Source: a bacterium
GTDB taxonomy: Bacteria > SM23-31 > JAUVVT01
DNA length: 12,285 nt
Reading direction: 5' to 3'
NCBI GenBank assembly: GCA_030616165.1
Contig: JAUWXV010000103.1
Span: 1 to 12,285 of the forward strand
Position numbers and translations under genes: made by a program. Positions 302 to 12,285 of the stretch are shown here, in pieces; positions within the stretch are counted from its first letter, which is position 1; each line of letters opens with the position of its first letter. A model generated the notes under the pieces. The model saw nothing but the letters and a program-made list of their open reading frames with translations, ran no database searches and had not been told where the DNA came from.

Positions 302-1735
302 TTACCTCACATCATATCTTAAAAAACCAACAAAAGCCAGTGCAAAGAACAATACGTTAAAGAAGAGCAGCACGCCCCAGTAAAGCAGGACTGCCTCTAT
401 GCGGTTTTTCAGCGGCTCTTCTCTAAAATTGAAGCGGGGACGATCGCTGACATCCAGAAAAGAGTTGCTGTCAAATGTCGGGTCATTTTTTACCGCCTCA
501 CGAACTTTTTTTCCCTGATAGTCGTAATACAATGCTCTATATTCTCCCGAAACTCGATTAAAATAATCCAGGCTGCGCAGACCAGTCCCTGACAAGTCGG
601 TGGCGATATAAACGAAGTTAGCATAGGGTGAAAGGCAGGCAAGATTTTTGGCAATTTTGTTTTGCTTATCAGTTTTCAAGTCCAGTTCGCTGCGAATTTT
701 TCTGGCTTTCTCATTCTGAATACGATTAGCCTCATTCCATGCATTGCCGAAGTCCTTGCGGTATGCCTCATACATTGTCCTAAATTCAGCATCAACAGCC
801 ACTCGCTGCCGCACCTCATCTTGAGTCATAGTTTGAAATTTAGTAAAGAATTCACCATATTGTTTTTCAAACCTTTTATTCACTTCTCCCGACAAACTCC
901 GTCCTAAGTTGTCTCGTTCAATACTTGTGAGACGGTCAAGTTCTCGTTCGATTTTGTTAACCGATGGAATGCGGTATAGTTGCGCCGAAATGTACGGACT
1001 AATGTTAGGGACCACCAGAATAAGCAGTACCCACAGGAAAAGGGATGTTAGTATTGAAGTAGACGAAAATCTTGAAAAGGTAGAAACCATAAGCCCCAGA
1101 AGATAAAATATGGAGATAAAGATTACAGATGCTAATATTAACAAACCAAATGATGCCCAGTTGGAAGTGTCCCAGTGAATTGCCGGGTGAATAGTGACAT
1201 ATATACCCCCTACCAATAAAGAGAAAATAAATGGAATCAAAAGACTGGTTGTTCCTCCGATACATTTTCCAAGAAGAATTTTTGCACGTGATAGAGAGTT
1301 GGACATCATTAGTTTTAGAGTCCCACTTTCCCGTTCTCCCGATACTGCATCATAGGAAAACATAATAGCCATCAAACTCATAATGACAGTGACGATGAAT
1401 AACAAATCAAGAGGTGGAAATAGCACAGGCAGAGGATTATCGTCAAAGGAGCCGAGATTAGCATCTCGGGGGATACCGATGATTAATGGTCGGAATCGTT
1501 CGGGCGGCTTCTGAGTCGCTATCATCCCGCTGATACGATTGGTATGAGCATACTGACTGAGAAAATCATCCTGCATGGTTACTCGAAGATAGTAATCCTC
1601 CATTTCCTGCTCATAATCGTGAGTCAAAATTACCACGCAGGAGATTGTTAGGATGACACATAGAATAAGCCCTATCATGAATCGCAGATTGAACAGGTTG
1701 TTCAGAAATTCTCTTGAAATGATTGTTCCTAACAT
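302..1735 (-). CDS. ABC-2 type permease, type C paralog (477 aa)
   Basis: Predicted integral-membrane subunit of an ABC-2 exporter; substrate unknown. The start is placed at ATG 1735, not the in-frame ATG at 1750, because AGGAG lies just upstream of 1735 with about 7 bases spacing and because MLGTIISREFLNNL then aligns with the N-termini of all neighbours. TM1 is about residues 19-40. Loop 1 is the shortest of the set and keeps KPP but has lost the usual PLSIF context. TM2 is followed by the cytosolic motif SYDAVSGERESGTLKL. TM3 to TM5 come next, then a large charged, probably helical extracytoplasmic domain with the block SPYANFVYIATDLSGTG, then DVSDRPRF, TM6 and the tail RYDVR. It is the last gene of the array, 63 bases after its upstream neighbour. 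Fold and membrane role are well supported; transported molecule is not. Confidence 0.9.
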   Translation of the reverse strand: MLGTIISREFLNNLFNLRFMIGLILCVILTISCVVILTHDYEQEMEDYYLRVTMQDDFLSQYAHTNRISGMIATQKPPERFRPLIIGIPRDANLGSFDDNPLPVLFPPLDLLFIVTVIMSLMAIMFSYDAVSGERESGTLKLMMSNSLSRAKILLGKCIGGTTSLLIPFIFSLLVGGIYVTIHPAIHWDTSNWASFGLLILASVIFISIFYLLGLMVSTFSRFSSTSILTSLFLWVLLILVVPNISPYISAQLYRIPSVNKIERELDRLTSIERDNLGRSLSGEVNKRFEKQYGEFFTKFQTMTQDEVRQRVAVDAEFRTMYEAYRKDFGNAWNEANRIQNEKARKIRSELDLKTDKQNKIAKNLACLSPYANFVYIATDLSGTGLRSLDYFNRVSGEYRALYYDYQGKKVREAVKNDPTFDSNSFLDVSDRPRFNFREEPLKNRIEAVLLYWGVLLFFNVLFFALAFVGFLRYDVR

Positions 1736-1798
1736 ATATTTGCTCCTCATAATTTTATTTTCATACTTAATTTGTATAGTATAGTTTTTAAAAAAATA

Positions 1799-3088
1799 TT
1801 ACCGCACATCATAACGCAAGAAAGCGACATACGCGGCAGCGAAAATCAAAACATTAAACATAATAAGAATGGTCAGGTTAATAAAGCCCTCAGCGCTGAG
1901 AACCTCTTTTACGGAACTGCGTTGAAAGGAAAAAGCAGGAAAATCCCCAAGAAGATTACCGCCTGAGTCAATGGGCTTATCATACACAAAGTCTTTATAG
2001 CGCAAAACTGCCTGCTTCAGTTTACGCTCTTCTAATATACCTGTTCCTGCTATGTCAGTTGCCAGGTAAGTAAAGGCGGCAGATGGCGAAAACCGGCTGA
2101 TGTTTTTGGATAAAGTTACAAGTCTATCGAAACGGGTGCGATAATCAGCAATGAGCCTGTCATTTTCAGAATTAATGTTATTTAATGTTTTACTCATCAC
2201 ATCATTAATCGCTTCATTTCGAGGTTGTGATCTATCAACCTGTTTCATTTGTTGATTGAGGTCAAAAACTTCCTTAATCCAGATGTGCTCCCGTTTTACC
2301 TCCAACTGCTGAACAGACGGGATTGTCACGAACTGCCTGGCAAGGATGTTCCCAAGATTTGGGATGACAAATACGATAAGAGCCCACATGAATAATGAAA
2401 TAACTAATGAAGAAGCAGGGCGGTGCGTAATAGATGAAATAAAAAGACCCAGTGAGAAAAAGACAGCCAGATAGAGCAGGGAACTCAAGAAAAACATTCC
2501 CAGTTTCACCCAATTTCCGCTATTCATTTGTACCTGGGGAGATAGAGTAACCAGAATAACGCCTAAAAGTACTGCTATAATAAATGGGACGATGAGACTC
2601 GTAAATCCACCAATCCATTTACCTATGACCATAATCGGTCGCCCAACGTTATTGCTTAATGATAATCTGAGCGTCCCCGCCTCCTTCTCGCCAGAGATTA
2701 TGTCGAAAGCAAACAGCATAGCGCAAAGAGCTATAATGACTTTAACGATATATAATAAATCAGGAGCAGTAAACAAACGAAAGAGATTGTTGACTCTCTG
2801 CTGTTTACTGCCAACTCGAACTTGTCCCCCAAAGCGAATTTCGTATGAACGCCCCATAGACTCATCCAACCCTTTAACAAATATAGAAAGCGGCGTTGGA
2901 GGTATTATGGCTATAGGTTGATTGGATTCCGGATGCAGAATCTCATAATTCTCCAGGCGTAATTGATAATCTCGATACATTATAAATATGCTGGTGAGAA
3001 TCAACACCATTGAAAAAATTGTGATTATTGCAAACTTGAAACTTAAAAGATTTTCTAAGATTTCTTTTTTCGTTATTGTCCAGACCAT
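1799..3088 (-). CDS. ABC-2 type permease, type C paralog (429 aa)
   Basis: Membrane subunit of an ABC-2 transporter and the shortest intact paralog. TM1 is about residues 19-38. Loop 1 carries PPTPLSIF at 63-70 and a GLDESMG segment. TM2 (111-128) leads into ISGEKEAGTLRLSLSN (131-146), the cytosolic motif expected to face the ATPase. TM3 is about 162-182, TM4 194-216 and TM5 228-243. Loop 2 (about 244-400) carries SRFSPSAAFTYLATDIAGTG (331-350) and a shortened DFPAFSF (382-388). TM6 precedes RYDVR. Loop 2 is most like those of the genes ending at 302 and 10595. No convincing Shine-Dalgarno precedes ATG 3088, so the start rests on alignment with paralogs and on the 142-base spacer upstream. 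Substrate unknown. Confidence 0.9.
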   Translation of the reverse strand: MVWTITKKEILENLLSFKFAIITIFSMVLILTSIFIMYRDYQLRLENYEILHPESNQPIAIIPPTPLSIFVKGLDESMGRSYEIRFGGQVRVGSKQQRVNNLFRLFTAPDLLYIVKVIIALCAMLFAFDIISGEKEAGTLRLSLSNNVGRPIMVIGKWIGGFTSLIVPFIIAVLLGVILVTLSPQVQMNSGNWVKLGMFFLSSLLYLAVFFSLGLFISSITHRPASSLVISLFMWALIVFVIPNLGNILARQFVTIPSVQQLEVKREHIWIKEVFDLNQQMKQVDRSQPRNEAINDVMSKTLNNINSENDRLIADYRTRFDRLVTLSKNISRFSPSAAFTYLATDIAGTGILEERKLKQAVLRYKDFVYDKPIDSGGNLLGDFPAFSFQRSSVKEVLSAEGFINLTILIMFNVLIFAAAYVAFLRYDVR

Positions 3089-3147
3089 AGTGTAATCTAC
3101 AGTTATTAATAATATTTATTTTTATCTTATATTTTTCAATCTCTCTT

Positions 3148-3174
3148 AATCTGCGCAATCCGTGTAATCTGTGG
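3148..3174. repeat. Three 9-bp imperfect direct repeats
   Basis: The units AATCTGCGC, AATCCGTGT and AATCTGTGG follow each other without gaps (3148-3156, 3157-3165, 3166-3174). They resemble a common intergenic motif of environmental bacterial genomes. They sit in the spacer between two permease genes, beside the separate ACCGCA-type repeat arm at 3184-3223. No coding or RNA function is apparent. Confidence 0.45.
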
Positions 3175-3183
3175 ATAAAATAT

Positions 3184-3223
3184 TACTCTCTGCGTCCTTG
3201 CGGTTCGTTTTTTTCTCTTTTTT
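3184..3223 (-). repeat. Solo arm of the ACCGCA-type intergenic repeat
   Basis: On the minus strand this reads a purine-rich boundary (AAAAAAGAGAAAAAAAC) and then GAACCGCAAGGACGCAGAGA. It matches the outer arms at 6451-6490 and 8085-8129. It begins 7 bases after the stop of the type A permease whose stop codon is at 3231-3233. It appears without the partner left arm. Confidence 0.6.
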
Positions 3224-3230
3224 AAATATT

Positions 3231-4628
3231 TTACCTCACATCGTACCTTACAAATAATACAAATGATGAAAAAAAGATTACTGCTGTGTAAATGACAATC
3301 ACTAACAAATACTTCAGTATGAAAGAAAATCGTTCTTCTAAAGATATTATTCTCTCCTCGAAAAGTGGTACTTGTTCAAAATTAACCGGTTTTTTAGTGG
3401 TGGAATAATTTTCATAAGGATTATACCAATGCGGACTGTCCGGGTCATTGGCATCCAATTCTTTAAAAAATTGAAGAAACTGGGGCTGGAAAGAATGTAA
3501 ATCATTCCAGACCTTTTGAAATCTTAAATATCCACCTCCAACGACTGCTTCATTCATATACTCAAACAGAGAAATAGGTGAAATCATTGTTAGAAGCCTG
3601 GTTTTCTCTAATTGTCTGAACATGTCCTGATAATAGGCATTTCTAATATTCATTTCACTGTTCATGAGATTGGTTTGATTATCTGCCCGCAGTTCATGTT
3701 CCGGCAGGAATGGATTACCACCGGATGCAGCCCAACTTCCTTCAGGTGCATTTCGGTTGATGTCATCTCTGGCTTTCGATACTTTTTCATTGATATCATC
3801 CGAGTGCTCAATAGAAAATATGTTTTTAGCCGAGAACATACTTGAATTTGGAATAATGACTACGAAGATTAACCAGAATGTCAATGCAATGAGCAGACTG
3901 ACATTGGATTTTCGGACAATCACTGAGGACAAAATCCCAAATGCCGAAATTAAGGATATAAAGAAGAACGAGAGAAGTATAAAATACAGTATTTCTATTA
4001 CGCTGATAAATGAAAGTGCAACTTTATTAGAAATAATGACTATTAAAATGCTCAGAATAATTCCGATGATAAGCATCAACATTGTGACCATAATCACACT
4101 GATATATTTCCCCCAGAGCAGTGTGCCCCTCGAAATAGTATTAGACAAAGTGATTGCAAGGGTTTTTGATTCTTTTTCTCCTGAAATCGTATCAAAGGTC
4201 AAAAGCAGGACAATAAAACTCATAATCAATGAAACAATGAATGACCAGTTTAATTCCTGAAAATTGTTTAGAAACGGATTCACACTTCCGCTTCTTACTT
4301 CAAACCCAAATACATTGTATGCGCTGTGAATAAAATTGTTAGGAAGATACTTTTCTTTACAATCTGCAATAAACCCATTTCCGCGCGGCTTCGAAACAAA
4401 CGTCTGTCGTCTAACAGCAAGATTGGAAGCATTACTTTCAGCGGTATTTTTTAATCCATTTGTGAATTCAACGTTATATTTAGAATATTCCTGAATCTTT
4501 GCATCATAACTTTTTAAAAAAGCAATCGTTCCAACGATAAATACCGCAGTGATTAACAGGAAAGATATTTGAAATACCAGACTGTAAAGATAGTGTTGAA
4601 GTTCCCGTTTAATAACATATTTTAACAT
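3231..4628 (-). CDS. ABC-2 type permease, type A paralog (465 aa)
   Basis: Membrane subunit of an ABC-2 exporter, substrate unknown. TM1 is about residues 20-38. Loop 1 is of a distinct kind, with LPNNF (95-99) and SAYNVFGFE (102-110) but no PPxPL motif; only the paralog at 6498-7919 shares it. TM2 (128-146) is followed by ISGEKESKTLAITLSN (148-163). TM3 to TM5 fill about 172-260. Loop 2 contains SPISLF (350-355), then GGGYLRF, a DPDSPHWYNP stretch and VPLF (420-423). TM6 (about 436-460) ends in RYDVR. Two usual features are altered: GTL in the cytosolic motif is KTL, and LGKxxGG is WGKYIS. The start is fixed by GAGGTGA five bases upstream; that site lies inside the last codons of the preceding gene, whose stop is only 3 bases away, implying coupled translation. 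Confidence 0.92.
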   Translation of the reverse strand: MLKYVIKRELQHYLYSLVFQISFLLITAVFIVGTIAFLKSYDAKIQEYSKYNVEFTNGLKNTAESNASNLAVRRQTFVSKPRGNGFIADCKEKYLPNNFIHSAYNVFGFEVRSGSVNPFLNNFQELNWSFIVSLIMSFIVLLLTFDTISGEKESKTLAITLSNTISRGTLLWGKYISVIMVTMLMLIIGIILSILIVIISNKVALSFISVIEILYFILLSFFFISLISAFGILSSVIVRKSNVSLLIALTFWLIFVVIIPNSSMFSAKNIFSIEHSDDINEKVSKARDDINRNAPEGSWAASGGNPFLPEHELRADNQTNLMNSEMNIRNAYYQDMFRQLEKTRLLTMISPISLFEYMNEAVVGGGYLRFQKVWNDLHSFQPQFLQFFKELDANDPDSPHWYNPYENYSTTKKPVNFEQVPLFEERIISLEERFSFILKYLLVIVIYTAVIFFSSFVLFVRYDVR

Positions 4629-4631
4629 TGT

Positions 4632-4640
4632 TCACCTCAC
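4632..4640 (-). promoter_or_regulatory. Shine-Dalgarno embedded in the upstream gene's DVR-stop codons
   Basis: The minus strand reads GTG AGG TGA ACA ATG. GTG-AGG-TGA encodes the terminal Val-Arg-stop of the type B permease, and at the same time GAGGTGA is an almost ideal ribosome binding site for ATG 4628. This is the tightest gene junction in the window and points to translational coupling of the two permeases. Confidence 0.75.
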
Positions 4641-6251
4641 ATCATATTTTATGAATGATATAAATGACAGATAAAACAAAAGAATGCTTATAAGAATAGA
4701 TGCAGAAATTTTAAAGAGACATTCTTTTAAATCAGTAAGTATATCTCCGAAATGCAACTGAAAAATTGGCACATCTGATAAATCAAGATAGGAATATGCA
4801 TTAGGATCGGTTTCGGGGATATCCACTTTACCCAAAGAGGCGGAAATAGAGCGCATAGAAGTGCCTTTTGCTTGTTCATTTCTAACCCATTCTCTATACT
4901 CCTGATTGTTTTTAAATTCACCTCCAGACCGTATCCGGACAATTTCATCTGCGGTCATGAAAGTTTCTGGCGGCACGGGGGTGAAATACGAGAAAGAAGA
5001 GAATATTTTCTTATCTTTAAAATAATTGATAAGTTCCTCGCGGTAAATCCGTGTCCTGTCCATAAATCTGTAATGCGAATTAACATCAGTGCGACAAAAT
5101 GCCGAACAAACGAGACGAAACAATTCAGAAGGAGAAATAAGCGAAATCATTTCTGCAAGGTTTTTTTGCTTATCAAGTTCATCGAGGTATGCCTTTTGAA
5201 ATGCCCACTTTTTATCCGCATAATCAATCCTCAATGGCTCCTTAAATTCCTGTGACTGTCTGTAATATTCGTAACGGGATTTTGAAGTGCCGTATAATTC
5301 CTGGTATCCATCCCTGCCCCAACTATGATTCCAATGCCTTCCCCAATCGGGCCGCTTGAGTGTTTTTTCATATTCATCCCATTCTTCCCCGTATTCTCTA
5401 TTTAAATCATCCAGTGCATATTGCAGGTTATCCCGGGATTGAACCTTAATGAAACTTTCTGCCATATAAACAGACAGGTTAGGTATAATGAAAATAAAAA
5501 ATACCCAGAAGAATAAACAAACAATAATACTGACTCTCGAAGAATGAGAACGGGTAGAAATTAAAAGTCCGATAAAAATGAATATCGAAAGAAATAATAT
5601 ACTTGTCAAAAATAAAAGGCAGATGCGTCCCCAATCACCTGCAGAAAATTGAATATTGGGGGAAATAAGAATAAATATTATGCTGAGAATATAGCAAAAG
5701 AGAATGATTGGCAGAAGTATCAGATAGACACCAATAACCTTTCCCAAGAGAATTTTATACCTGCTGATTGAATTGGATAACTGTAATTTTAATGTACCCT
5801 CTTCTTTTTCCCCCGTACATAAATCATAAGTAAAAATCAGCGCCAAAAGGGACATTACGATGGCGATGATACCGATAAAATCGATAGAGAAAAAAGAATT
5901 CAGCAGAGGATTATCACGTATTGCAGTTTTCCCGGTTGCCAAAAGCGGTTTTTCACCGAGCCAGATTTTGACACGGTTACCCACATTACTGCTTATCCCT
6001 CCGCTGAAAATAGTCAATGGTTCCGGTGGCTTGACAATCTCAGGTCTTAGTTTAGAATAGACCTTAACTTCTTTAAAGTTTTTGTCTGTCTGAGCTTTAT
6101 CTAAAGTATACACCCTTAATTGTTCACTGTAATCATCAATATTAACCATTAAAGTAAAAGGAATCAAAAACAGGCACAGCAGAAAGCCGATAACGAATCG
6201 GGACGAGACTAAATTCAACAGAAAATCTTTTTTAGCAATAGAAAATATCAT
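4632..6251 (-). CDS. ABC-2 type permease, type B paralog (539 aa)
   Basis: The largest permease here; membrane subunit of an ABC-2 transporter of unknown substrate. TM1 is about residues 19-37. Loop 1 carries KPPEPLTIF (74-82) and a GGISSNVG segment. TM2 (124-142) is followed by CTGEKEEGTLKLQLSN (145-160), where the usual Ser before Gly is Thr. TM3 is about 172-198, TM4 208-231 and TM5 240-258. Loop 2 spans about 250 residues: an aromatic and His-rich patch (302-315), SPSELF (373-378), a FTPVPPETFMTADEI block (423-437) and DLSDVPIF (490-497). TM6 (513-534) is followed by YDVR. The FTPVPPETF and DLSDVPIF blocks match the frameshifted gene at 8136-9727, so these two are sister type B copies. 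The start at ATG 6251 is supported by AGGGAGA a few bases upstream. Confidence 0.92.
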   Translation of the reverse strand: MIFSIAKKDFLLNLVSSRFVIGFLLCLFLIPFTLMVNIDDYSEQLRVYTLDKAQTDKNFKEVKVYSKLRPEIVKPPEPLTIFSGGISSNVGNRVKIWLGEKPLLATGKTAIRDNPLLNSFFSIDFIGIIAIVMSLLALIFTYDLCTGEKEEGTLKLQLSNSISRYKILLGKVIGVYLILLPIILFCYILSIIFILISPNIQFSAGDWGRICLLFLTSILFLSIFIFIGLLISTRSHSSRVSIIVCLFFWVFFIFIIPNLSVYMAESFIKVQSRDNLQYALDDLNREYGEEWDEYEKTLKRPDWGRHWNHSWGRDGYQELYGTSKSRYEYYRQSQEFKEPLRIDYADKKWAFQKAYLDELDKQKNLAEMISLISPSELFRLVCSAFCRTDVNSHYRFMDRTRIYREELINYFKDKKIFSSFSYFTPVPPETFMTADEIVRIRSGGEFKNNQEYREWVRNEQAKGTSMRSISASLGKVDIPETDPNAYSYLDLSDVPIFQLHFGDILTDLKECLFKISASILISILLFYLSFISFIKYDVR

Positions 6252-6305
6252 CTGATTCTCCCTATCTTAATAATAATATCAAAAATATTTATTGTTAAAT
6301 TCTTT

Positions 6306-6490
6306 TTCACCGCAGACCCACAGGGCAGGCCCAAAGGGCAAGCCCGCCAGAGGCGGACAAGCCCGCCAGAGGCGGACAAGCCCGAAGGGCAGGGGTGCAG
6401 AGAAACAAAGAATTTCAAAAATTATTTACAATTAATCTTTTCTATTGAAATATTTTCTCTCTGTGTCTTTGCGGTTATTTTTTTTCTTTT
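6306..6490. repeat. Imperfect palindromic intergenic element, copy A
   Basis: The left arm begins TTCACCGCAGACCCACAG and ends GTGCAGAGAAACAAAG. The right arm (about 6451-6490) is an inverted version, ACCGCAAAGACACAGAGAG on the minus strand. Between the arms is an AT-rich centre of about 40 bases. The left arm also contains a GC-rich insertion with a 19-bp tandem repeat. Copy B at 7974-8129 shares both arms and part of the insertion. The element is MITE-like or REP-like in shape, with no ORF and no recognisable transposase. It starts 7 bases after the stop of the 473-aa permease. Confidence 0.65.
6339..6384. repeat. 19-bp tandem repeat, 2.4 copies
   Basis: The unit CAAGCCCGCCAGAGGCGGA occurs exactly at 6339-6357 and 6358-6376, with the first 8 bases again at 6377-6384. 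Each unit carries its own CCGCC-AGA-GGCGG stem. Copy B of the surrounding element has a related GC-rich insertion but no such duplication, so this looks like a local expansion inside copy A. Confidence 0.8.
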
Positions 6491-6497
6491 AAATAAG

Positions 6498-7919
6498 TTA
6501 CCTCACATCATACCTGATAAAACTCACGAAGGCTCCGGCGAAAAAAAGTAAATTGAATAAAATTAGAAATAGAAAATATGGCAATGCTTCATTAATTGTC
6601 GTTTTTAAATCCGTCCGCTTTTCCTGAAACTTGGGGATGTTATTAAAATCGAGTTTTTCTAACATTACATTGCTGCCTTCTTCATAAATTTCAGAGGTCA
6701 TACCTCTGTGCCATTTCAGCGGGAGAGGATAGGTGTCGAGCAAAGACTGCCGCATGGTGAGTTTGTAATTCCGGACCTGACTGAAAAATCTTTCATAATG
6801 TACAGTCCCTGATTCAACGAGTTCTTCCAGACAATTGGTAAAGCAGGCAAAAGGAGAAATAAGAGTTATTTTTTGTGCAAGTTCGACTTGATGTATCATC
6901 TGGTTACGGTAATCATCAAACACTCCAGACCATGCATCACTCATTTCGATTGCCCTTTCTAATGGTTCGCCGGGAGACCAATGGCCGCTTACGCCTGCAT
7001 TAGCCAATTCAGGATTCCGCTCATCGTAGTTCTTTCGAGCGTCTCGTTCTGCTCTGGAAGCGTCACTACTTGCATCATACAACGCCGGGATATCGGTAAC
7101 CTGGGATGCTATCAATCCGCCGGTTCGAGGAACAATAATGACAAAAATCGCCCAGAATAAAAGCGCAATAACAAGGCTTGTGGCTGATTCTCTCGTTCGG
7201 CTTGAGATGAATAAGCCCAGCATCAGAAATACAGAGATATAAAGCAATGAAAGGATAAACGTTAGTCCGATTACTATCCAGTCAATGGTTACGAACGGTA
7301 TGTTACCGAATGCTGATAGAATTATGAGATGAATCACCATTCCAAGCAGAAGCGACACCGAAAGACAGGCAAATCCGCCGAGAAACTTCCCGAGAATCAC
7401 AGTTGAACGTGATATACAGTTAGACAGACAAAGTCGGAGCGTCCCGCTCTCACGCTCACCGCTGATTCTGTCATAAACGAGAATCAAGGATATAAAGCTC
7501 AATACTATCCCGATAATGAGCGCCCAGTCAAGTGCATCACTCCGCCAGAGAAGGACATTGGAACGAATTCGCTTTGACGGACCGTAAATTCTGAAAGCGG
7601 ATGGCTGAAATGCATTGGGCAGGTTACGACCGTTGCCCTCGGAAATAAAGGAAAGGTAGTTGGGTGTTTTGTATATCCAGGGACCGTCAAAGTTAAAACT
7701 GTAAATGTAAAACAACGCGGCTGTTCTTGATGCACGGTCTGAAAGTTGTGCTAATGTCTCATTTCGGTGCTGCGTGTAATCTTCAATCTGCTGGTGATAA
7801 TCCGATATAAAAAGAATCGCGCTCACCACCATTAGTACAACAAGGAGCACAAATGTCAGCATTAGCCGAAGACTTTTCAGGTGATCCATAATCTCATTGA
7901 TGACGATATGGTATAACAT
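6498..7919 (-). CDS. ABC-2 type permease, type A paralog (473 aa)
   Basis: Membrane subunit of an ABC-2 exporter; substrate unknown. TM1 is about residues 20-39. Loop 1 has the type A features LPNAF (100-104) and SAFRIYG (107-113), shared only with the gene at 3231-4628. TM2 (about 131-149) is followed by ISGERESGTLRLCLSN (152-167) and LGKFLGG. TM3 to TM5 fill about 179-253. Loop 2 (about 254-445) carries GHWSPGEP, then SPFACF (355-360), a PLKWHRG segment and LDFNNIPKF (423-431). TM6 (about 446-468) is followed by YDVR. ATG 7919 is preceded by GAGGG at about 7 bases. It is separated from its neighbours by the two intergenic repeat copies, 216 bases upstream and 246 bases downstream. Confidence 0.92.
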   Translation of the reverse strand: MLYHIVINEIMDHLKSLRLMLTFVLLVVLMVVSAILFISDYHQQIEDYTQHRNETLAQLSDRASRTAALFYIYSFNFDGPWIYKTPNYLSFISEGNGRNLPNAFQPSAFRIYGPSKRIRSNVLLWRSDALDWALIIGIVLSFISLILVYDRISGERESGTLRLCLSNCISRSTVILGKFLGGFACLSVSLLLGMVIHLIILSAFGNIPFVTIDWIVIGLTFILSLLYISVFLMLGLFISSRTRESATSLVIALLFWAIFVIIVPRTGGLIASQVTDIPALYDASSDASRAERDARKNYDERNPELANAGVSGHWSPGEPLERAIEMSDAWSGVFDDYRNQMIHQVELAQKITLISPFACFTNCLEELVESGTVHYERFFSQVRNYKLTMRQSLLDTYPLPLKWHRGMTSEIYEEGSNVMLEKLDFNNIPKFQEKRTDLKTTINEALPYFLFLILFNLLFFAGAFVSFIRYDVR

Positions 7920-7973
7920 AATTTACCCTCATATTACTGGTTAAAAAGTTGAATTTTGTTTTTTTAAATATTT

Positions 7974-8129
7974 TTCACCGCAGACCCACAGGGCAGGCCC
8001 AAAGGTCAAGCCCGAAGGGCAGGGACGCAGAGAAACATAGAATTTTAAAGATATATGTACTAATAATTTTTCTGTTAAAATATTTTCTCTCTGTTTCTCC
8101 GCGTCCTTGCGGTTCATTTTTTATCTTTT
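7974..8129. repeat. Imperfect palindromic intergenic element, copy B
   Basis: The left arm starts TTCACCGCAGACCCACAG and ends GGACGCAGAGAAACATAG. The right arm (about 8085-8129) gives AACCGCAAGGACGCGGAGAA on the minus strand, so the ends are inverted copies of each other around an AT-rich centre. It is closely similar to copy A at 6306-6490 but lacks the 19-bp tandem duplication. On the minus strand it starts 6 bases after the stop of the frameshifted permease. A 93-codon frame runs through it on the plus strand but is composed of repeat and antisense sequence. Confidence 0.65.
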
Positions 8130-8135
8130 GCTTAA

Positions 8136-9263
8136 CTATCGAACATCAGCCCTCAAGAAGGAAACCCATGCCAGCGAGAAGAAGAATATGTTTAAAAATA
8201 TCAGAATGGATATTTCAAAAATCGCATTAGCCGTCGATATCCTCAAATCAGTAATCGAATAATTGAAACGTGGTAAATCACTGAGATCGAGCGGGTCGAT
8301 ACGGTAATTTATAATATTCTTTACTTCTTCTTCGCCCTGTGAATTCTTGAGTATGATGAGTTCCCTGCTGCTCAAAAAAGATTCAATCGGCTTCCTTGTG
8401 AAAAGGAGATAGGTGTCGAGACCGCCTTTGCTTTTCATATAACTGATTAATTCACGTCGATAGTCCGCAGACTCCTCAAGGAAACGCAGATAATTGTTCT
8501 CACTTGTTCCCGCGATTAGTGAACTGCCGTGTGAAAAAGCCCATGAAGGTGAACACAGACTCAAAGCACGCGCAAGACCCACCTGCTTGTTTAGTTTGAG
8601 CTGATAGTCTCGATAGAGCTGCCAGATTCGGTCCTCATACTCCATCCGCAGGTTGTGTCCAAAAATAGACCCGTGATATACCCACTCCATCATTTCTTTA
8701 ACTGTATAGAAGAACCTGTAAGCAAAGGGCCAAATTCCTGTATAAACTCTCCGTCCCCGTTGCACCGTTCGGAGAAATTGTGCATCCTGTTCAGAGAATT
8801 CTCTCGCTATTGATTTCATTATCTCTATCGCCGGCAAGGGATTTTTTATGGTATACTCATCCATTCTTTCCACCCATTCATCGATTAAAACCTGTGCCTG
8901 ACTGTCAATGACAGCCCTGTCAGGCACTGTAACGAGTTGCCGTGCCGCATAAACCGCGGTATGCGGAAGGATTATAACTGTAACAACCCAGATGAAAAGG
9001 AGGAGAATCAGTACTGTTGCCGAATGTCTGATACGGCTTGACAGAAGCATCCCCAGAGAGTAAAACGCAGCGAGATATAGTATTGCTAAAAAGAAAATTA
9101 TAATTATTCTGAGATAATCATTGGAATTAAGCACAATCATAGAATCGGTGTGAATGATGAGCAAACTTAATAATAAACCGATAATAAGCGGAAAGACCAC
9201 ACTTGTCATACCACCAACAAAATTTCCAAGAAGCACCGTATGTCGGGGGATATCATTAGACAA
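8136..9263 (-). pseudogene. ABC-2 type permease, type B paralog: C-terminal part of a frameshifted gene
   Basis: This is the back part of one gene spanning 8136-9727; the frame actually continues up to 9293, where it meets the N-terminal frame. The codon at 9261-9263 is TTG with no ribosome binding site and aligns with Leu of the conserved LSN, so it is not a real start. With one base restored at 9293-9296 the product is 530 residues and the broken motif reads ISGERERGTLQLILSN. This part holds TM3 to TM5, a large extracytoplasmic domain with SPSWAF and LIAGT, a FTRKPIESFLSSREL block, DLSDLPRF, TM6 and the tail RADVR, in which the usual Tyr is Ala. The FTRKPIESF block marks it as sister of the 539-aa type B gene. 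Whether it is non-functional or a sequencing error cannot be told from one sequence. Confidence 0.85.
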
Positions 9264-9727
9264 AATGAGCTGCAGTGTTCCACGTTCACGTTCCCCGAAA
9301 TGGTATTATATGCTAAAAATATCACCAGCAGACTTAGAACTATTTCTATGACTGTGACTAAATCAAGTGATGGAAACACCGCCAGAAGCGGATTACGTGT
9401 GCCTCTCTCTTCGGCTATGGTAGGCGCCTTGTCAAATGCCACGGTAACCGAAGTACCAAGTCGTTTATCAGCACCTTCACAAATGATTGAAAGCGATGAC
9501 GGCGTGCGGTCCAGACCGACATTTAATTCCGCGAAAGTATATGTTTCTTGCAAGGCATTCTCATGTTGACGGACACTATTTCCGTATTGTTCTAACCGTT
9601 CCTTATAATCCTGGGCTAAAATAAGTGTACTGGCAACAAAAAGAACTTCGCACAGTATAAAACTGATGGTAAAGCGCATGCTGAGAATATTCGATAGAAA
9701 CCGATGTTTCGCTATTAAGAAAACCAT
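9206..9727 (-). pseudogene. ABC-2 type permease, type B paralog: N-terminal part of a frameshifted gene
   Basis: This is the front part of the 8136-9727 permease. ATG 9727 is well supported by AAGGAG about 9 bases upstream. TM1 is about residues 19-38. Loop 1 carries TPSSLSI and an EGADKRLG segment, the type B/C pattern. TM2 (about 122-140) leads into AYNTISG (139-145), with Asn where most paralogs have Asp. The homologous sequence stops after Gly145; the following residues NVNVEHCSSF are out-of-frame reading and the frame closes at 9206. If translated as is, the product would be a one- or two-helix membrane fragment lacking the cytosolic coupling motif and the rest of the transporter. Confidence 0.85.
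9293..9296 (-). other. Frameshift site in a short G-run
   Basis: The minus strand reads ATT TCG GGG AAC GTG. One extra G would give ATT TCG GGG GAA CGT GAA CGT, restoring ISGERER as in the paralogs. The run is four G (CCCC on the plus strand at 9293-9296). A single-base loss in a homopolymer fits either an assembly error or a recent mutation. A -1 slip of the Gly codon on GGGG would also restore the frame, but the run is short and no stimulatory structure was identified. Confidence 0.85.
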
Positions 9728-9778
9728 TATTATATACTCCTTAAAAAAAGCACAGTAATAATATTTATTTTTTTCTTA

Positions 9779-9820
9779 TATTTTCTCTCTTTTTCTCTGC
9801 GGTTAATTTTTTCCCTTTTA
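9779..9820 (-). repeat. Solo arm of the ACCGCA-type intergenic repeat
   Basis: On the minus strand it reads TTAAAAGGGAAAAAATTAAC, then CGCAGAGAAAAAGAGAGAAA. It matches the right arms of copies A and B and the solo arm at 3184-3223, though it lacks the GGACGC core. It begins 10 bases after the stop of the ATPase gene and occupies most of the 103-base spacer before the next permease. Confidence 0.55.
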
Positions 9821-9830
9821 ATATTATCTC

Positions 9831-10544
9831 TTACACTGCCTCCTGCATATAATCCAGGTAGATTTTTTCCAAATCCTCTTCAAGAAATTCCTCACGTGTG
9901 CGGATCATCACTAACCGTCCCTCTTTCATTATTCCCACACGGTCTGCAATAGTCTTTGTACGGAATATATCATGTGTACACATGAGAATTGATTTTCCGT
10001 TGTCGCGCAGACCTTTTAAAATTTTGATGAATTCGGCTGCCGCTGTAGGGTCCAAACCGGCAGTCGGTTCGTCCAATAAAATATTGGGTGCATCTTTAAT
10101 GATAGCAATGGTGATGCCCAATTTTTGCCGCATTCCTTTGGAGAAATTTTTCAAACGCATTTCAAATGCTTCCTCCTGAAGACCGACCTTTCTCATATGC
10201 ATATGATAATCTTCTTTTGTCAGTTCCCTTTTCCCACCCAGTTTGGCAAAGAAATCCAGATTCTGACGGGCAGTGAAATTTCCATAAAGCATTACATTCT
10301 CTGATACGTATGATGCATATTTTTTGGCTTCCAATGGGTCTTTTGTTACATCGATACCGTTTATCAGGGCTGTTCCGGCGGTGGGGTCTATGAAATTCAA
10401 GAATAGATTAATGGCAGTGGTTTTACCGGCACCATTGGCACCCAATAAACAGAAAATCTCCCCTTCCTTGACTTCTAAACTCAAATTGTCAAGAGCCAGA
10501 AGTCCATCTTCATAACGCTTGGTTAAATCGATTGCTTGTAACAT
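9831..10544 (-). CDS. ABC transporter ATP-binding protein (237 aa)
   Basis: Cytosolic ATPase subunit expected to dimerise and power the ABC-2 permeases encoded around it. Visible motifs: A-loop Tyr11, Walker A GANGAGKTT (35-43), a Q-loop position occupied by Glu82 in YVSENVMLY, signature FSKGMRQK (134-141) in place of canonical LSGGQ, Walker B ILLDEP (155-160) with catalytic Glu159, D-loop AGLD (162-165), and switch His191 in CTHD. Glu at the Q-loop and SKGM in the signature are common in CcmA/NosF-like ATPases that serve ABC-2 exporters. The length is that of a bare nucleotide-binding domain with a short C-terminal helix. ATG 10544 follows a strong GGGAGGT six bases upstream, better than at most of the permeases. 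It lies 50 bases after the AT-rich permease and 103 bases before the frameshifted one. Confidence 0.95.
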   Translation of the reverse strand: MLQAIDLTKRYEDGLLALDNLSLEVKEGEIFCLLGANGAGKTTAINLFLNFIDPTAGTALINGIDVTKDPLEAKKYASYVSENVMLYGNFTARQNLDFFAKLGGKRELTKEDYHMHMRKVGLQEEAFEMRLKNFSKGMRQKLGITIAIIKDAPNILLDEPTAGLDPTAAAEFIKILKGLRDNGKSILMCTHDIFRTKTIADRVGIMKEGRLVMIRTREEFLEEDLEKIYLDYMQEAV

Positions 10545-10594
10545 AATATACCTCCCGATAAATAATTAATTATGGTTTTTTATTTTTATTTCAT

Positions 10595-12046
10595 TTATCT
10601 CACATCATATTTTATAAATTTTACAAAACATATAATAAAGAAAATAATAGTAACAATTATAATAATACACATATCTATCAATATATAATTAATTACTTCT
10701 TTTAATTTTACATGTGTATAATTATTTATGTGAGGAACTAGCAAAGTTTTTTTATCAACCTGTGAATAATAAGAATATACGTTTTCTCCAATCATATAAC
10801 GTTTATAAATCCAATTATCATAAATATCGTGTTGTACATTATATTGGAATTCGTCCGCATAATTATTAAAGTTATCAATTTCTGAAAATCCTGTACCAGT
10901 TAATTCTGCAAGCATATATTTATAACAACATACTGGAGAAAAACGAGATATATTTTTTATTAAATTGTATTGATTATCTTTTCTAATTTCATATTGGTTT
11001 TCTAATTTTTTAATTTCATTGTTTATTCTTTTTTCATACTCTTCTCTTAAATAAGCTATATCTTTATCAAATGAAGCTAAAACTGTCTGAATATCATCAT
11101 TAGTAAAATTTTTAGGTGAGACTTGTGTAGGAATAATTCCATGCTTTAGAAAAACATTATTCAGAAGTTCGTCTTCCTTTCTAATTAATTCTCTATTAAG
11201 ATTATATTTTATCATATTAAGTTCACTATCTATGAATTCTTGAGATTTTATTGGATATATTGTCTGTCCAATCATCGGACTTATCTGCGGAATAAAGAAT
11301 ACTATTATCATCCATATTAATGATAATATAACAATTGAAGTTGCAGAATTATATGTACAAATTGATATTAAAATTCCCAGATTAAAAAGAAGAAATAGAA
11401 ATACAATACTTGTAAGAAATATAAATATTATAGATAGATAATTATTAGTAAAAATGGAAAAAGTATTTGAAATATTTAAAATCATAATCCCTAAAATAAA
11501 GGCTATTATAAATGGAATAATAAAGCTTATAAAATTACCAATTATTTTTGCGATGATTATTTTCCATTTTGGTATTGGATTTGATAGCATTAGCTTTAAA
11601 GTGCCTTTTTCTTTTTCTCCACAGATTAAACTAAAAGAAAATATAAATACAAAAATAGGCAAAATAATACTAACAATGATTGAATAGTCAAGATAACCAT
11701 ATAAAACATCATAGAATTCTTTAAAAACTAGTCTTGTCTCGATTTTTTTTTCATCTAGATTAATAAGCACTTTGTAAGGTAAATTATCTTCAAGACCGTG
11801 TGTGAACACACTCAGTGGAGAAGGTGGTCGAAAACCTTGAGCAATAAAATTATGGATAATATTATTTTCAGAAGCATTATGATACATTTGTTTTTCATTC
11901 CCATATTCCTCTAATTGAAATTCATATTCATTAAGTGAAAGATAAATACCCAATGGTATAGTAACTATACACACAATGTTTATAACTAAAAATCGAAATG
12001 TAGTAACTATATCTTTAATTTCCTTTAGTATTAAAGTTTTTATCAT
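10595..12046 (-). CDS. ABC-2 type permease, type C paralog, very AT-rich (483 aa)
   Basis: Membrane subunit of an ABC-2 transporter directly upstream of the ATPase; substrate unknown. TM1 is about residues 19-37. Loop 1 carries PPSPLSVFTHGL (74-85). TM2 (about 121-138) is followed by ICGEKEKGTLKLMLSN (141-156), with Cys for the usual Ser and the YD before it replaced. TM3 is about 169-190, TM4 204-229 and TM5 236-252. Loop 2 includes a Lys/Glu-rich, probably coiled-coil stretch (about 328-366), then SRFSPVCCYKYMLAELTGTG (367-386). TM6 (about 455-476) ends in KYDVR. The DLSDxPxF motif is replaced by VPHINNY. ATG 12046 follows GGAGA at about 8 bases. Base composition is far lower in G+C than the rest: 9 of 60 at 11401-11460, against 32 of 60 at 8521-8580 in the frameshifted paralog. 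Confidence 0.92.
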   Translation of the reverse strand: MIKTLILKEIKDIVTTFRFLVINIVCIVTIPLGIYLSLNEYEFQLEEYGNEKQMYHNASENNIIHNFIAQGFRPPSPLSVFTHGLEDNLPYKVLINLDEKKIETRLVFKEFYDVLYGYLDYSIIVSIILPIFVFIFSFSLICGEKEKGTLKLMLSNPIPKWKIIIAKIIGNFISFIIPFIIAFILGIMILNISNTFSIFTNNYLSIIFIFLTSIVFLFLLFNLGILISICTYNSATSIVILSLIWMIIVFFIPQISPMIGQTIYPIKSQEFIDSELNMIKYNLNRELIRKEDELLNNVFLKHGIIPTQVSPKNFTNDDIQTVLASFDKDIAYLREEYEKRINNEIKKLENQYEIRKDNQYNLIKNISRFSPVCCYKYMLAELTGTGFSEIDNFNNYADEFQYNVQHDIYDNWIYKRYMIGENVYSYYSQVDKKTLLVPHINNYTHVKLKEVINYILIDMCIIIIVTIIFFIICFVKFIKYDVR

Positions 12047-12225
12047 CTTAAATTCTCCAATACAATAATTTTTTTATTATTTGATATCACATTAATATAT
12101 TTATAATAAAATTGGCCTATTTAAAATTATGTGAAAATAAAAATTATCTTTAAAGATTTCAGAAAGTATTCAATTTTAAAACTCCACATAAAGTTTCTAA
12201 AACTAAAGCAGCAATATCCGTTACT
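12047..12225. other. AT-rich intergenic spacer
   Basis: These 179 bases separate the right-edge permease from the AT-rich permease. No open frame with a ribosome binding site and no copy of the ACCGCA repeat is visible. On the minus strand there is a TTGAAT (about 12171) and a GATAAT with 19 bases between them, a poor promoter match that I do not call. The Shine-Dalgarno GGAGA of the next gene lies at its left end. Confidence 0.5.
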
Positions 12226-12285
12226 TTATCTCGCATCATATTTTAGAAAACTTACAAAAGTACTAACAAAAAAAGTATTGAAAAC
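12226..12285 (-). CDS. C-terminal end of a further ABC-2 type permease (partial)
   Basis: The last 19 codons before a TAA at 12226-12228 read VFNTFFVSTFVSFLKYDAR. This matches the end of TM6 plus the short cytosolic tail of the other permeases (compare FVSFIRYDVR at 6498 and FVKFIKYDVR at 10595), with Ala for Val. It is the eighth paralog in the window, truncated at the right edge, and its subtype cannot be judged. The match is short, but family position, strand and tail agree. Confidence 0.75.
   Translation of the reverse strand, partial: VFNTFFVSTFVSFLKYDAR

Follow-up and report, generated by a model that had tools for sequence, protein, structure and literature searches.

An array of ordered ABC-2 permease genes with a single ATPase gene recurs in several bacterial phyla

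ABC exporters are usually described as having one motor per channel, and sharing of an ATPase is known from ABC systems such as the ECF group II transporters and MsmK. MceG is likewise the one ATPase for the Mce1 and Mce4 importers (PMC9947336), and FhuC is the one ATPase for several permeases, whose partner choice has been tied by the authors of that work to the coupling helix (PMC10147376). In these shared-ATPase systems, permeases that differ in specificity draw on one ATPase, as we propose below for the array described here; however, they are importers with scattered permease loci, whereas the array consists of NosY-like presumed exporters that lie together with their ATPase in a single ordered locus.

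Amongst efflux systems, YbhGFSR of Escherichia coli is an ABC-2 transporter comprising the adaptor YbhG, the double ATPase YbhF and the permeases YbhS and YbhR (PMC7190983). It shares with the array two ABC-2 permeases, an ATPase, a periplasmic adaptor and a presumed reliance on TolC, but has one permease pair, a classical membrane fusion protein and no permease array. In the NosDFY(L) system of denitrifiers, the ABC-2 permease NosY and the ATPase NosF are separate proteins, as they are in the array, and the NosY fold is common to both. The helical insert of roughly 180 residues on the extracytoplasmic side of the array permeases is absent from NosY, however, and the array has several different permease pairs along with TolC and NEW3-domain proteins; neither a NosD-type partner nor a NosZ/NosL context was found among the subset of neighbouring genes that we scanned. 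An ABC-2 permease and a DrrA/GldA-like ATPase are also common to GldA/GldF, yet the matches of the array to GldF are weak. Scores against the curated NCBIfam models lie far below the cut-offs (at most 36.8 bits against 288.5 for GldF, and 143.4 against 402.6 for GldA), and gliding motility was rejected as a function. Anti-phage defence was rejected as well, as neither the permeases nor the NEW3 protein had a PADLOC match and the matches of the ATPase look like generic ABC/AAA hits. We found no description of such arrays in the open-access literature, subscription journals being outside the scope of this search, nor any paper there that mentions DUF3526, a domain matched, mostly weakly, by several of the permeases.

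Gene content of the window and conservation of its permeases

The stretch of DNA analysed herein, which we refer to as the window, spans contig C343 (12,285 bases) from end to end. The draft genome that contains it totals 3.74 Mb over 343 contigs, is approximately 90% complete and belongs to the class of bacterium SM23_31. All genes in the window lie co-oriented on the minus strand. In the order of transcription, the window opens with the last 20 codons, including the stop, of a permease gene cut by the contig end (12226–12285; product ending in SFLKYDAR), followed by a permease of 483 amino acids belonging to clade A of the trees described below (10595–12046; PF12679, E = 1.9e-31; clade support 100/99) and by the only ABC ATPase of the array, a protein of 237 amino acids with intact Walker A, signature and Walker B motifs (9831–10544; PF00005, E = 3.2e-26). 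Six permease genes follow, the last ending at position 302. A clade L permease (8136–9727) precedes its clade S partner (6498–7919; E = 4.5e-36 for PF12679, as for the values below), a second clade L permease of 539 amino acids (4632–6251; E = 1.3e-30) precedes a second clade S partner (3231–4628; E = 9.2e-35), with these L and S assignments taken from the trees, and a clade D permease of 429 amino acids (1799–3088; E = 3.3e-30; clade support 100/100) precedes its clade E partner (302–1750; E = 6.7e-33). The sequence-only reading of this DNA had proposed seven co-oriented permeases, the tail of an eighth and one ATPase, and the profile searches bear this out: PF12679 is matched by all permeases of the window, with E values from 1e-10 to 1e-36, and a single ABC-like ORF was detected in the window even at a permissive threshold.

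The first clade L gene is interrupted at a G-run near position 9290 (9280–9300, minus strand), where a frameshift of one base yields two overlapping ORFs (9206–9727 and 8136–9263) that match the profile in two frames. The frameshift falls inside the conserved coupling segment, and the gene may be either a pseudogene or the product of a sequencing error at the G-run.

The attributes of the ABC-2 (type V) class are present both in the permeases, where all intact members score above the PF12679 cut-off and the six-helix fold resembles NosY, ABCG and ABCA, and in the PF00005 domain and nucleotide-binding motifs of the ATPase. An AlphaFold2 model of the clade E permease (pLDDT 94.8) is most similar to NosY, with which it aligns over all 250 NosY residues (Z = 28.7, rmsd 2.2 Å, 22% identity), while ABCG and ABCA proteins match at Z values of approximately 19–21; the large helical extracytoplasmic domain noted above is an addition to this fold. 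Amongst the six intact permeases of the window, identity is 59% in the coupling segment, which is cytosolic and lies between helices 2 and 3, and 89% in the C-terminal tail, versus 17% and 12% in the two regions on the extracytoplasmic side. In a NosY-like fold, the ATPase is expected to make contact with this segment. The motifs that the sequence-only reading had singled out as shared extend well beyond this locus, as the E-x-E-x-G-T-L residues of the coupling segment, an SP pair and the D-x-R tail are each at least 90% conserved across 104 relatives.

Recent tandem duplication was considered as the origin of the array and ruled out: array members are 26–38% identical to one another, whereas orthologs of the L, S, D and E permeases in other phyla are mostly closer, at 40–64%. 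On these identities, the array is a collection of old transporter pairs.

Recurrence of the array and fixed order of its permeases

A scan of an 84,980-species genome collection recovered members of the family in records named Aminicenantes, Acidobacteria, Planctomycetota, Latescibacterota, KSB1, Zixiibacteriota, Calditrichia, Ignavibacteria, Rhodothermales and Bacteroidetes. Simple loci with the order NEW3–ATPase–permease–permease or permease–ATPase–NEW3 are common, and the array architecture with one ABC ATPase each is also found in Aminicenantes, Planctomycetota, one Prevotellaceae genome and other lineages. An intact contig of 199 kb from Aminicenantes fen_413 (G387) carries ten permeases within 48 kb, eight of which form one array in the order TolC, NEW3, A, ATPase, A, A, A, L, S, D, E. 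The corresponding order in genome G149 is TolC, NEW3, D, E, A, ATPase, L, S, L, S, and in Planctomycetota genome G391 it is L, S, kinase, regulator, L, S, L, S, TolC, NEW3, D, E, ATPase; the strings of G390 and G392 are similar, with one permease of G392 apparently split as well. A permissive scan found a single ABC-like ORF per array locus in the window, G387, G391, G390, G392 and G149. Three long ORFs of 1574, 754 and 776 amino acids had the look of domain fusions, but the 754-residue frame overruns the ATPase gene and the 1574-residue ORF holds a run of masked bases.

Within the phylum of the window, the array was found in one of six genomes, namely the source genome itself; most of the other five are incomplete. 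Genome G149 (locus L155) lies outside this phylum, and its array ATPase is 91% identical to that of the source genome, with 73% identity for the NEW3 protein and 61–64% for the D and E permeases. The ATPase of an SM23_31 genome of the same class is less similar, at 71%. This likeness between G149 and the source genome looks like horizontal transfer of the array, judging from sequence identity.

We built permease trees of 201 sequences and, by a more careful maximum-likelihood analysis, of 85 sequences. Eight clades each occupy one side of a branch in these trees, and all are monophyletic in the maximum-likelihood tree (support 96/86 for L, 100/99 for S and for A, and 100/100 for each of D, E, G, F and f); the clades are common to several phyla. 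In chromosomal order, S comes after L in all 31 cases and E after D in all 14, an order that is together invariant in 45 of 45. The L and S trees mirror one another (r = 0.962, 21 pairs), with the true neighbours ranking first of 576 within-genome assignments, as do the D and E trees (r = 0.955, nine pairs). The same pair types also occur alone with one ATPase, D–E in L070, L079 and L085 and L–S in L091 and probably L042. Beside the ATPase, A-type permeases are found alone or in odd-numbered sets. That the array is a string of fixed ordered pairs whose partners are co-inherited is well supported by these sequence comparisons. Mirror trees and fixed order can be obtained from genetic linkage alone, and for this reason we only infer that L and S neighbours, and D and E neighbours, form physical heterodimers.

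Probable upstream genes and a candidate adaptor to TolC

A permease profile search located further members of the family in the source genome. Contig C285 carries one permease behind a divergently oriented GAF-domain histidine kinase and an NtrC-type regulator, and contig C321 carries three permeases with a TolC/OEP protein (PF02321, E = 1.8e-40) and a NEW3-domain protein (PF10633) between them. C321 breaks off inside a clade A permease, at about position 298 in a profile of 477 positions, and the window opens with the tail of a permease; as no other permease of the family in the source genome is cut by a contig end, these are probably one gene. C285 ends after a clade L permease that lacks a partner and C321 begins with a clade S permease that lacks one, and the tree places the two in matching subclades, the same pair subtype. 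On the basis of the matching L/S subtype and the complementary broken ends of C321 and the window, C285 and C321 probably lie upstream of the window. So joined, the full array would span approximately 25 kb in the order regulators, L, S, TolC, NEW3, A, A, A, ATPase, L, S, L, S, D, E, with 11 permeases to one ATPase. The earlier observation that nothing else accompanies the permeases and the ATPase therefore holds inside the window contig and fails beyond it, where TolC-type, NEW3 and kinase/regulator genes lie on the contigs that are probably upstream.

An identical overlap of 73 bases between C285 (5011–5083, L027) and C321 (1–73, L026) was at one point taken as proof of their join and has been withdrawn, because the sequence is a palindrome-containing dispersed repeat (core GGGACAGGACATTGTCCTGTCC) with eight exact copies and at least 39 matches, often at contig ends. 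The repeat probably breaks the assembly.

TolC and NEW3 genes are adjacent in C321 as well as in G387, G391 and G149. A model of a homologous NEW3 protein from L043 (pLDDT 81, pTM 0.45) comprises a signal-like helix at the N terminus, a coiled-coil hairpin (residues 44–82 and 88–123), beta domains and a C-terminal helix that, in the model, looks like a membrane anchor. At the predicted tip of the hairpin we identified RxxxLxxxxxxS in an alignment of 31 homologs (R in 74%, L in 94% and S in 84%), a short motif that is incomplete in some members, including at position R in the copy of the source genome. This is the RLS motif by which AcrA, MacA and MexA dock to TolC (PMC3391258). The hairpin of one NEW3 homolog also matches the RND-adaptor model TIGR00999 (2.2e-8). 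With the RND, HlyD and MacA adaptors the NEW3 protein thus shares a coiled-coil hairpin with the RLS tip motif, but, unlike in those adaptors, the hairpin is N-terminal and is followed by Ig-like/NEW3 domains and the C-terminal helix. Fold searches returned no known membrane fusion protein among the matches listed, and no lipoyl or beta-barrel domain was recognised; Ig-like proteins fill these lists, so the searches are uninformative as to adaptor identity. Two of the parts expected of a tripartite system are represented, one by the TolC/OEP gene on C321, a contig that would join the window as outlined above, and the other by the hairpin with its RLS tip. Given the tip motif and the RND-adaptor match, the NEW3 protein is likely, from its modelled architecture, to be a TolC adaptor of unusual build, and would as such be a new design amongst these adaptors.

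Sigma-54-like sites were found upstream of 7 of 84 system genes versus 6 of 360 other genes in the same loci (Fisher p = 0.004). One such site, TGGCATATCTCTTGCA, precedes the C285 permease behind the divergent kinase and regulator.

A proposed shared ATPase and the competing readings

The ATPase is 66–91% identical across the comparison genomes versus 28–64% for permease orthologs in the same genomes, and the array genomes encode one to three close homologs of the window ATPase against, in most of them, six to 14 permease matches genome-wide. In L060 and L087, L–S and D–E pairs occur with no ABC-like ORF within several kilobases on either side, and may be served by an ATPase encoded elsewhere in the genome. 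This genomic stoichiometry and the ATPase-less pairs would fit an ATPase that is shared among pairs. The window ATPase need not act alone, given that contig C192 (L025, 616–2889) carries one clade G permease followed by a second ATPase that is 91% identical to it. These ATPases group as sisters in their tree, though the permeases beside them are only distantly related, which suggests duplication or gene conversion within the source genome.

We consider it reasonably probable that several NosY-like heterodimeric exporters share one ATPase and are coupled to TolC via an unusual adaptor bearing the RLS motif. Each L+S, L+S and D+E set of neighbours would make one fixed heterodimeric membrane channel, with A-type permeases besides, and a dimer of the single ATPase would dock on the strongly conserved coupling segment (E-x-E-x-G-T-L) of any pair that it encounters. 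Through its diverged helical domains on the extracytoplasmic side, each pair would have a substrate or partner of its own, the NEW3 protein with its N-terminal coiled-coil hairpin would act as the periplasmic adaptor to a TolC-type channel, and the GAF histidine kinase and sigma-54-type regulator would control expression. Efflux through TolC with pair-specific substrates is the best reading of the locus, its direction, substrates and docking to TolC being deduced from the genes and motifs present. The shared motor with divergent outer parts envisaged by the sequence-only reading draws support from the single ATPase per array in several phyla, the ATPase-less pairs and the conserved coupling segment. 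Moreover, no array permease was found to have an ATPase of its own, and relatives carry simple and multi-permease loci both, rather than the simple ones only that were thought to tell against that proposal. Its suggestion of sensor or self-protection roles finds no support, as the TolC-type and adaptor-like proteins favour efflux.

Its view of the outer parts as interchangeable is likewise unsupported, as the permeases come in fixed pairs of set order and the tree of each partner tracks that of its own neighbour. A combinatorial exporter, in which array permeases mix freely into many dimers on one ATPase, would account for the presence of many permeases with the same coupling segment beside one ATPase and for the single or odd-numbered A-type permeases. 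We regard it as improbable, however, because the L–S and D–E order never varies, the true L/S neighbours are the best of all within-genome assignments and pair types are found alone with an ATPase elsewhere. Still less credible is that only one pair works, for instance that nearest the ATPase, with the other permeases decaying or spare. The frameshifted permease of the window and the apparently split one of G392 could be taken as signs of such decay, but the other window permeases are intact and keep the coupling motif, and their orthologs in distant phyla, at 40–64% identity, are paired in the same way, a state that would not persist in decaying copies. The most serious rival, though still unlikely, is a NosDFY-like machine acting in the periplasm, in which the ATPase would drive conformational change in the extracytoplasmic domain of each pair, for example to mature envelope proteins or lipids or to extract them. 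The closeness of the fold to NosY, the large helical extracytoplasmic domains and the M1-peptidase-like proteins beside some L–S pairs are in keeping with such a machine. Against it, the TolC-type proteins and RLS-bearing NEW3 proteins of the arrays favour transport across the outer membrane, yet many simple loci have no adjoining TolC gene.

The multi-permease, single-ATPase ABC-2 array is genuine and recurrent, and both its single-ATPase organization and its pairing are well supported. A wider claim, to which we give slightly less than an even chance, is that such loci represent an undescribed modular class of exporter in which a highly conserved ATPase powers an ordered series of fixed, ancient heterodimers that lead to TolC via a non-canonical NEW3/Ig-type adaptor, and that horizontal transfer contributed to its spread over several phyla. 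The gene content of the arrays, which returns in distant phyla, points to a single motor driving several different channels, which would be the export counterpart of the shared-ATPase importers. Fixed pairs, a conserved coupling segment and a very conserved ATPase make recognition between motor and channel directly testable.

Some loci exhibit other arrangements and neighbours. In KSB1, Zixiibacteriota, Calditrichia and Rhodothermia (L065, L084, L104 and L113), there is a widespread operon of NEW3, ATPase, permease F and permease f, for which we found no description and no recognised TolC gene adjoining. M1-peptidase-like proteins directly adjoin L–S permease pairs in L143 (12536–14527) and L049 (344–1837), and in L144 a protein with an HExxH-like motif (16511–17554) adjoins an A permease. 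These peptidase-like neighbours are a possible clue to substrate.
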